The notes under the pieces: model-generated
The model's input: only the letters and a program-made list of their open reading frames with translations
Database searches by the model: none
Told to the model about the DNA's origin: nothing
Position numbers and translations under genes: made by a program
NCBI RefSeq assembly: GCF_029267515.1
Contig: NZ_JAJUIS010000001.1
Span: forward strand, 1 to 64,000
DNA length: 64,000 bases
Direction of reading: 5' to 3'
Source of the DNA: Seleniivibrio woodruffii
GTDB taxonomy: Bacteria > Chrysiogenota > Deferribacteres > Deferribacterales > Geovibrionaceae
Part shown: one piece after another, positions 19,376-21,933 of the stretch
How the letters are laid out: every line of letters starts with the position of its first letter
How positions within the stretch are numbered: the stretch's first letter is position 1

Positions 19376-20716
19376 ATGATAATCTCAGGCGTGAACAACA
19401 GCCAGAATTACAGCTTCTTTAATGTAAACCAGTCCGGCAATCAAAAAACGCCTGAAGCATTAACTACCGACAAATATGTCCCCACAACATCAAGCACGTC
19501 AGCCACATACAACATGTTCGGCAATATCCAGAAGAGCATATTCGATTCATTTACAAACGAAAACAGCTTCATGAGCGCTATTCGCACTGTATTCGATAAT
19601 GTTGAAAATCAGGCTTTATCCTCCGAAACACTCACTCAGGCTGCAAAAATATCAGACGAGTTCAAGAAAAAAGGAGAATGGCTGAGTATTAGCCCTGATG
19701 GCAAGCACGTATCAATACGTGATGCAGAAAACGTTTACTATGAAGGTAAGGAACAGAGCATATCAGTTTCTAATAGCGACAATGTTGTTTTGAATGCGAC
19801 GAAAGGCAAAAAAGAGATTAACATATTTGGCAGTAAAAACGTTGTCTCAAACACAGGAGAGGGCAGCGACCGCCTTTTTGCAAATAATTCAAGCAATGTC
19901 ATTATCAATAGCGGCGGAGGCAACGACGGTATCGGAGTTATCAGGTCTAAAAATGTCCTTATTAATTCAGGTAATGGAGATGACCGTGTTTTTTCATCGG
20001 GATCAAGCGGAGTTGCTATAAAAAGTGGTAAAGGTAACGACATCATCACAGTAGGTAATTCCAATAGCATTATTATCGATAGCGGTGACGGAAATGATAA
20101 AACCACCTTATACTCATCAGATTCAGTAAATATAAACAATGGAGATGGGAACGATACGACATCTGCCATTTCGTCTGAAAACTTAATAATAGACGGCGGT
20201 AAAGGTGACGACATCATCAATGTTCAACATTCCAGTAATGTTATTGTAGATGGCGGAGACGGAGATGATGTCATAACTGTTGAGCACTCCAGCAATGTCA
20301 TCGTAGATGGCGGAGCAGGAAACGATACTATAACAGCTTCAGGTATAATATCAGGCGGTACAGGTGACGACTATATCAAACTTCACCACTCAATTTTCCT
20401 TAAAGATGAAAAGATTCAGGACGTTATTAAATACAGTAAAGGCGACGGAAACGACATCGTTGAAGGCGTGACAGAAGACACCATTATCGAACTCAACGGC
20501 ATATCAGAAGATGAATACGATATAACTGAATCAAGAAACGAAAACGGTACGAAAGTAAAAACTCTGACCATGAAAGATGGTAGCGGAAGCATGACCCTGA
20601 TTTACAACGGTTCAACATATTCAAATCATGTCAAAAAACAGGATAATGCAGAACAGTACAGCAATATGCCAGAATACACCCGTTTAAACAATGTCAGTGT
20701 CGGGCAAGCAGACTAA
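19376..20716 (+). CDS. RTX-like secreted repeat protein with ten 19-residue repeats
   Basis: 446 residues and no Sec signal peptide, as expected for type I secretion substrates. Residues 1-133 are Asn/Ser-rich without a recognised domain. Residues 134-323 are ten tandem 19-residue units, consensus SxNVxIxSGxGNDxIxxxx, close to the RTX GGxGxD calcium motif but with one motif per turn. A short unit (SGGTGDDYIKL) and a C-terminal region of about 115 residues follow, the latter with a dense acidic stretch. GAGGTG at 19366-19371 supports the start. No type I transporter genes are in the window. Function unknown. Confidence 0.82.
   Translation: MIISGVNNSQNYSFFNVNQSGNQKTPEALTTDKYVPTTSSTSATYNMFGNIQKSIFDSFTNENSFMSAIRTVFDNVENQALSSETLTQAAKISDEFKKKGEWLSISPDGKHVSIRDAENVYYEGKEQSISVSNSDNVVLNATKGKKEINIFGSKNVVSNTGEGSDRLFANNSSNVIINSGGGNDGIGVIRSKNVLINSGNGDDRVFSSGSSGVAIKSGKGNDIITVGNSNSIIIDSGDGNDKTTLYSSDSVNINNGDGNDTTSAISSENLIIDGGKGDDIINVQHSSNVIVDGGDGDDVITVEHSSNVIVDGGAGNDTITASGIISGGTGDDYIKLHHSIFLKDEKIQDVIKYSKGDGNDIVEGVTEDTIIELNGISEDEYDITESRNENGTKVKTLTMKDGSGSMTLIYNGSTYSNHVKKQDNAEQYSNMPEYTRLNNVSVGQAD
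19775..20344 (+). repeat. Ten tandem 57-bp units encoding the 19-residue repeats
   Basis: Units begin at SDNVVLN, SKNVVSN, SSNVIIN, SKNVLIN, SSGVAIK, SNSIIID, SDSVNIN, SENLIID, SSNVIVD and SSNVIVD, all exactly 19 residues apart. The last two are nearly identical while the first is divergent, suggesting growth of the array from its 3' side. Confidence 0.88.
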
Positions 20717-20822: not shown

Positions 20823-20944
20823 ACGAGAACAAATCACCAGACACAGACGATATCTTATTTTTCTGGTTGTACTGTTGTATTTTTTAAGATGAGCTACGCT
20901 CTATTCTGCGAAAACATACGAAGTATATAATAGTGGCTAACAGC

Positions 20945-21060
20945 GTTAATTTTTTAATTAAATCTCGTTAATCAGATTATTAAAGTTTGTTAATCATATT
21001 TTCAAGGCAACATTTCAATTTTCTTGCGACTCTAAACAACAATAATTAACACCTGTTAAT
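20945..21060. promoter_or_regulatory. Spaced GTTAAT array
   Basis: GTTAAT starts at 20945, 20967 and 20989, exactly 22 nt (about two helical turns) apart; the last two are extended to GTTAATCA. A perfect inverted pair, ATTAAC-acct-GTTAAT, follows at 21045-21060. The array ends about 40 nt before a good promoter at 21101. Same-face spacing is typical of cooperative protein binding. The DNA is AT-rich, so single hits mean little; the exact spacing is the evidence. Confidence 0.5.
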
Positions 21061-21100
21061 TCTGTTTTTGTTTAAACGAGTAAAAATCGGTAAAATACTG

Positions 21101-21129
21101 TTGACATTACATAATAGAACTACAATAAT
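21101..21129 (+). promoter_or_regulatory. Sigma70-type promoter
   Basis: TTGACA (21101-21106), 17-nt spacer, AATAAT (21124-21129). Start of transcription would be near 21136, exactly where a run of hairpins begins. There is no protein start with a ribosome site soon after it, so it appears to make a non-coding or long-leader RNA. Confidence 0.7.
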
Positions 21130-21135
21130 ATTCCC

Positions 21136-21304
21136 GAGCATGTTTTTATGCTCAGTTCGTCACCGACACTGAGTATCTCTCTATGTTCAATATATAACTC
21201 CGCTCCGGCGGGGAATCGCCTAACAGCGAACAAAGCACCCCAGTTTCGGTGGTGTTCTTTAATGCGAATCATTTTGTATTGTCAGCGTACAACCATGATT
21301 TGCG
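21136..21304 (+). ncRNA. Candidate structured RNA (unknown class)
   Basis: Consecutive hairpins follow the promoter: GAGCAT/ATGCTC (21136-21153); CTCAGT/ACTGAG with inner TCG/CGA (21151-21173); CTCCGC-tccg-GCGGGG (21198-21213); TCGC/GCGA (21216-21229); CACC/GGTG (21236-21251); and a long one, TGCGAATCAT with ATGATTTGCG enclosing TTGTA/TACAA (21263-21304). The first two share three nt and may alternate. This GC-richer block sits in AT-rich flanks. No terminator is obvious, so it may instead be the leader of the HTH gene at 21498. I recognise no known RNA family. Confidence 0.45.
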
Positions 21305-21497
21305 CAAACAAAAAATATCAGACAATATCACCACGCAAAATTATAATACACATCAAACATATAGATAATTTTATTCTGTCCCTTTTTCTAGCCTTGTTCC
21401 AATACACAATTTCTAATCAAATTCATACAACACGATAATTAATCAATTTCTCAGAGATGTCACAACCCTCTAATTATCTGATATGTTGGAGATTATG

Positions 21498-21752
21498 ATG
21501 TCTAATCAAAATGCAATCGTTGAACACCACTGTACTGTGTGCCGATATAAATCTGAAGAGTATGAGTGCCCATACAAAAAATATGATGAAATTTGTCTGA
21601 AACTCAGTGACGCAGCAACCCAAATTGGGAAAGCCCCTCAAACCCTCTACAACTGGAAATGCGACGGCAAAATTCAGACGATTAAATCAGGAGGGACTCT
21701 GCTATTCAGGAAATGCCAACTGATGTGTTTTCTGGCATTGCGTTCGCAGTAA
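21498..21752 (+). CDS. Small Cys-containing helix-turn-helix protein
   Basis: 84 residues. The N-terminal part has HHCTVC and later ECPYK and EICLK, which could bind a metal. The C-terminal half, LSDAATQIGKAPQTLYNWKC with DGKIQTIKSGG following, looks like a MerR/excisionase-type winged HTH. GGAG at 21488-21491 fits the ATG at 21498 best; ATGs at 21483 and 21495 are less well placed. It lies in AT-rich accessory DNA about 110 nt from the 3' end of tRNA-Asn. It may regulate its own upstream region. No integrase gene is present. Confidence 0.65.
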   Translation: MSNQNAIVEHHCTVCRYKSEEYECPYKKYDEICLKLSDAATQIGKAPQTLYNWKCDGKIQTIKSGGTLLFRKCQLMCFLALRSQ

Positions 21753-21860: not shown

Positions 21861-21933
21861 CTCCCCGAACTGGACTTGAACCAGTAACCTATTGATTAAC
21901 AGTCAATTGCTCTGCCGATTGAGCTATCGGGGA
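21861..21933 (-). tRNA. tRNA-Asn (GTT)
   Basis: Minus-strand cloverleaf: acceptor TCCCCGA/TCGGGGA, D-arm GCTC..GAGC, anticodon arm ATTGA-CTGTTAA-TCAAT with anticodon GTT, T-arm ACTGG-TTCAAGT-CCAGT, discriminator G, no encoded CCA. Its 3' end faces the AT-rich accessory patch, the usual side for integration of mobile elements. Confidence 0.97.

Follow-up and report, generated by a model that had tools for sequence, protein, structure and literature searches.

The RNA and its surroundings in the window

Beside a tRNA-Asn gene, the window (the whole 64-kb stretch of Seleniivibrio DNA that was analysed) holds a small gene for a helix-turn-helix (HTH) protein and, upstream of it, a hairpin-rich block of 169 nt at 21136-21304. 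The block lies between a segment containing a 130-bp repeat (20868-20997) and the HTH gene, which abuts tRNA-Asn. The block is a gene for a folded RNA that had not been catalogued before, and it has a promoter of its own. The features are listed below, where S0 to S4 are the hairpins, G000 is the genome of the window and G001, G003 and G004 are the other species carrying the RNA; L053 and L054 denote stretches of G003, L055 a stretch of G004 and L056 one of G001.

20868-20997, + strand: island repeat (130 bp), with a 30-bp core at 20911-20941 and three GTTAAT boxes at 22-bp spacing (20945, 20967, 20989)
21101-21129, + strand: promoter TTGACA-N17-AATAAT (-35 at 21101-21106, -10 at 21124-21129), 11/12 consensus match, -35 identical in G003
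21136-21304, + strand: structured RNA of five hairpins, supported by its fold (z -5.97), by covariation and by homologues in G001, G003 and G004
21136-21188, + strand: S0, two-tier 5′ hairpin in both MFE and centroid folds, unchanged in G003 and replaced by a shorter hairpin in G004
21198-21213, + strand: S1, 5 pairs in four sequences, with 2 compensatory changes and 1 one-sided change
21216-21229, + strand: S2 (AAUCGC-loop-GCGAA), stem invariant, loop of 4-6 nt
21234-21256, + strand: S3, flush between the AnAA and CUUUAA linkers
21257-21262, + strand: linker CUUUAA, invariant in 4/4 copies
21264-21303, + strand: S4, 3′ hairpin, 9+6 bp in the window, 6 bp in G004 and G001
21319-21347, + strand: second promoter-like site (CAGACA-N17-TATAAT) that probably serves the HTH gene; 10/12 positions match, and G003 has the same sequence
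21498-21752, + strand: small HTH protein, 84 aa from ATG, HTH_17/excisionase-like (HTH_17 E 0.007)
21861-21933, - strand: tRNA-Asn, adjoining the island (ARAGORN and Rfam)

Also beside the repeat, positions 19376-20716 encode a 446-aa protein with many NVIINSGxGDD-like units, RTX-like by eye and with no credible Pfam match; a relative of it adjoins the repeat in G003 (L054 7191-8186). The tRNA-Asn genes of the window (21861-21933) and of L053 (1115-1187) differ at 4 of 73 positions between these two species of one genus.

The first-pass annotation had pointed to a hairpin-rich block of about 170 nt, GC-richer than its flanks and outside any recognised RNA family, and each of these points was borne out. 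The RNA has a minimum free energy of -58.8 kcal/mol vs. -36.3 ± 3.8 kcal/mol for dinucleotide-shuffled sequences (z -5.97), none of the 200 shuffles being as stable, so that the shuffling control proposed in the annotation came out clearly in its favour. The complementary (-) strand gave a z of -3.03. A 120-nt scan of fold stability peaked on the + strand at 21120-21150 (z -4.1, -2.9), coinciding with the peak in GC content (0.42-0.49 in the block vs. 0.25-0.35 in the flanks). At the gathering thresholds of Rfam, the whole window yielded two tRNAs only and no match to the RNA block, and a scan of 20950-21500 with E up to 10 returned chance-level matches only.

The structural details of the annotation needed some revision. 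The last stem does contain the two G-U pairs described, but consists of 9+6 rather than 10+5 bp, and its internal loop is asymmetric (1x2) instead of symmetric. The proposed switch between the first two hairpins did not hold up: two competing 5′ hairpins can be drawn, but the energies differ by about 7 kcal/mol in favour of the nested fold (-20.3 vs. -12.9 kcal/mol for the alternative), making a two-state switch at equilibrium unlikely.

The promoter noted in the annotation is present, and its position is conserved in two unrelated upstream contexts. Indeed, at all four loci the 5′ end of the RNA is preceded by an exact TTGACA, 17 nt and then AATAAT, AACAAT or TAAAAT, a few nucleotides before the first hairpin. 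This promoter (TTGACA-N17-TAAAAT in G004 and G001) overlaps the last codons and stop codon of an integrase gene in those two genomes and is intergenic in G000 and G003. An exact TTGACA with a comparable -10 occurs at only four sites across both strands of the 64-kb window. No intrinsic terminator was found after S4 on the + strand, leaving the RNA and the HTH gene without a terminator between them, and in the window they are separated by a gap of about 180 unstructured bases.

Homologues and covariation

The RNA occurs in four of the five sequenced species of Seleniivibrio (Deferribacterota), with one copy in each, and was not found in 286 other genomes. A blastn search with the window RNA matched G003 only. 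The G004 and G001 copies were spotted by reading islands with the same repeat core, in which the motif GGAATCGC-loop-GCGAAnAAA ... TCTTTAA follows the stop codon of the integrase gene and precedes the start of the HTH gene. The pattern GAATCGC-N2-9-GCGAAYAAA was found once each in G000, G001, G003 and G004 and in 0/56 other genomes, with no match for a reversed control. When only G000 and G003 were used to build a covariance model, its best non-self matches in 145 kb were in G004 (E 2.9e-4) and G001 (E 9.2e-4), both falling in the gaps between integrase and HTH gene.

All four sequences have the order S1-AA-S2-AnAA-S3-CUUUAA-S4, and both S1 and S3 contain compensatory changes; the outer pairs of S3, for example, are AU GU CG AU CG in G000 vs. 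AU CG GC CG AU in G004. In the aligned set of 17 pairs, every cell with letters forms a standard pair and 7/17 pairs have changed on both sides. This result was reached by 0/500 shuffles, and slid partners paired at only 34-68%. With only four members, in two close pairs, the covariation depends on a single deep split; in addition, the alignment in which stem pairs were counted had itself been fitted to the model. The covariation on homologues that the annotation had suggested looking for is there, and the model built on one pair of species finds the second. Folded alone, the G004 copy adopts the same five hairpins in its MFE structure. The fold z was -4.57 in a second species (-5.97 for the window copy), and single-copy values were modest in G004 (-2.0) and G001 (-1.4).

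The G000 and G003 RNAs are 95.9% identical, compared to 68% and 72% at third codon positions of the HTH and rubrerythrin genes, respectively. Most neighbouring intergenic stretches are also 87-99% identical between the two species, the promoter spacer (65%) and discriminator (50%) being the variable part, so that conservation alone does not mark out the RNA.

A four-member model run over 290 genomes returned the four loci only, plus one match with an E of 0.066 inside an open reading frame. We considered a wider family by searching about 85k genomes and IMG/VR for the motif pattern, and rejected it: the extra matches outside Seleniivibrio all had weak model scores, and those whose context was read lay wholly or partly inside open reading frames. 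Phages and plasmids gave no match to the RNA by blastn, and no such RNA was found downstream of more distant integrases of relatives.

The island, its repeat and its cargo

In 4/4 species the RNA lies on the same strand as, and directly upstream of, a small HTH gene. In G004 and G001 it is found at tRNA-Arg and falls exactly in the gap between a tyrosine integrase gene and the HTH gene. In the window and G003 it is beside tRNA-Asn, with the HTH side only and the integrase missing. The RTX-like gene and tRNA-Asn are about 1 kb apart in the window; the whole segment between them is kept in G003 and absent in G001, and in G004 only the end of the HTH gene is left of it. The two HTH proteins preceded by the RNA are just 22% alike over 50 aa, and in genome G007 an HTH orthologue, matching the phrog_66 excisionase/regulator family (E 3e-5), is found at tRNA-Asn without the RNA. 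The RNA therefore appears to travel with a type of island and not with one HTH protein. Antisense control of the HTH mRNA start was considered and rejected: the best duplexes were at the level of shuffled RNA in G004 and G001 and weakly better in G000 and G003, with no significant pairing.

The repeat core (≤2 mismatches) and the RNA pattern occur in the same 4/60 genomes. There are four copies of the repeat in G003 (L053 2054-2199, 6536-6754 and 9695-9857; L054 6888-7024), and related cores occur twice in G004 (L055 9705 and 15732) and once in G001 (L056 1141). The boxes read GTTAAT in G000 and G003 vs. GGCGTT in G004 and G001, with an exact 22-bp spacing in both. The repeat may serve as a site of recombination or as a binding array. 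An integron attC site was rejected, the repeat region showing no excess of structure. No duplicated tRNA 3′ end that would give the island limits was found in the stretches read.

The repeats bound or adjoin anti-phage cargo. In G004 this is a RADAR pair (RdrA E 3e-40, RdrB E 1e-43). The G003 cargo comprises SngABC (Shango), an MBL-fold pair and a NACHT protein that is weakly similar to HyoA. Within the G003 islands (L053 2547-9601; L054 845-6472), the NACHT protein has 1306 aa and the MBL-fold protein is accompanied by a 457-aa protein without family matches; the Shango genes form a complete-looking set adjoining the repeat. Three species (L053 10001-10771; L055 16023-16877; L056 92-880) encode a protein of 256-284 aa, weakly similar to the 3′-5′ exoribonuclease YhaM, at the distal end of the repeat array.

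The G001 island corresponds to the G004 island minus one RADAR-plus-repeat unit. A 669-bp duplication in G004 (91%; L055 9338-10006 and 15366-16033) starts at the stop codon of a Fic gene and flanks the RADAR genes on both sides. In G001, where RADAR genes are absent, the duplicated segment is present once, as a chimera of the two G004 copies: the left of its single repeat mostly resembles copy 1, and the far right copy 2. In the window, the left part of the repeat is like the second G003 copy and the right part like the RNA-proximal one. The window has neither the integrase nor any defence cargo; the repeat, the RNA and the HTH gene are all that remain. From these resemblances between repeat copies, the window looks like an emptied island, or the state before cargo arrived.

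Proposed role and relation to known systems

The homologues of the RNA, its conserved fold, the constant promoter position and the recurrent genomic context are observed; its most likely role, by inference, is to regulate the HTH/integrase module. Our preferred reading, to which we give a probability of roughly 0.55, is that the block encodes an RNA that belongs to a mobile, tRNA-linked defence island and controls this module, whether free or as a leader. Transcription from its own sigma-70-type promoter would produce an RNA of roughly 115-170 nt, predicted to form five hairpins parted by the conserved linkers UAUAAC, AA, AnAA and CUUUAA, which may be sites of contact with protein or RNA. It sits immediately upstream of a gene of the putative excisionase/AlpA kind and, where the island is intact, immediately after the tyrosine integrase gene. 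It would work as a free sRNA or, where transcription continues into the HTH gene, as a leader. The second promoter-like site after the RNA and the unstructured gap of 180 nt favour a separate RNA, whereas the lack of an intervening terminator would fit a leader.

A purely cis-acting 5′ leader of the HTH mRNA, such as an attenuator or riboswitch-like element, would account for the position directly upstream of the HTH gene on the same strand in 4/4 species and for the missing terminator; we consider it rather unlikely in view of the conserved separate promoter-like site at 21319-21347, the roughly 180 unstructured bases between RNA and gene in the window, and the mere 22% similarity of the two HTH proteins that the RNA precedes. 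That the RNA is a diverged member of the Rfam int-alpA family is improbable: the layout of integrase, RNA and AlpA-like HTH gene is the same, but the window and G004 stretches gave no int-alpA match in Rfam up to an E of 10.

Could the hairpins act as DNA, as a site of recombination, transfer or replication of the island? The integrase/HTH module and the nearby repeat with its boxes iterated every 22 bp would suit such a role. However, a promoter stands at the 5′ end in 4/4 cases, the + strand folds better than the - strand, there is one copy per genome, and the cassettes differ at another element, the repeat; we regard this explanation as very improbable. Chance hairpins, or an old palindromic insertion without function, would fit the G001 copy, which alone is weakly more stable than its shuffles, and the good conservation of neighbouring intergenic DNA, but are largely refuted by the cross-species detection, the covariation, the conserved promoter and an identity well above that of third codon positions, and are scarcely credible. 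Beyond the preferred reading of an island RNA regulating the integrase/HTH module, the RNA, the HTH protein and the 130-bp repeat might conceivably form one system that gathers and releases anti-phage cassettes, an integron-like platform for defence capture with site-specific repeats (the core plus three boxes spaced 22 bp) and a dedicated structured RNA controlling or assisting recombination, a speculative scheme that we think quite unlikely.

Structured RNAs tied to integrase/excisionase modules are a known layout that is poorly understood, and we know of none reported from this phylum. The Seleniivibrio RNA would add a separate family, tied to anti-phage islands that gain or lose cargo at a recognisable repeat. 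Since Seleniivibrio is a cultured genus, its expression, island excision and cassette exchange are directly testable.

The closest parallel in position is the int-alpA RNA motif of Rfam, a structured RNA between a tyrosine integrase gene and an AlpA-type HTH gene. The same order is seen in G004 and G001, and its HTH side only in the window and G003, so that the integrase is missing at two of the four Seleniivibrio loci. The Seleniivibrio RNA differs in having been found in this genus only and in lacking a credible Rfam score: cmscan with E up to 10 on 20950-21500 of the window and on L055 7250-7560 gave no int-alpA match. It thus occupies an int-alpA-like place and may work similarly, and is not detectably int-alpA as judged by the Rfam model. 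Examples of int-alpA sought through P4-type integrase loci of E. coli had no alpA neighbours. The C4 and CI antisense RNAs of P1 and P4 are likewise small RNA regulators on an integrative element or satellite, but the Seleniivibrio RNA has no Rfam match and no significant antisense pairing to the neighbouring mRNA start. The STAXI motif is also structured and found near integrases and DNA-handling genes, and is a tandem pseudoknot (PMC2864571); the Seleniivibrio RNA shares the proximity to integrases but consists of five simple hairpins in a single copy. Together, the data suggest a small new family of RNAs of tRNA-linked islands with an integrase-RNA-HTH layout.
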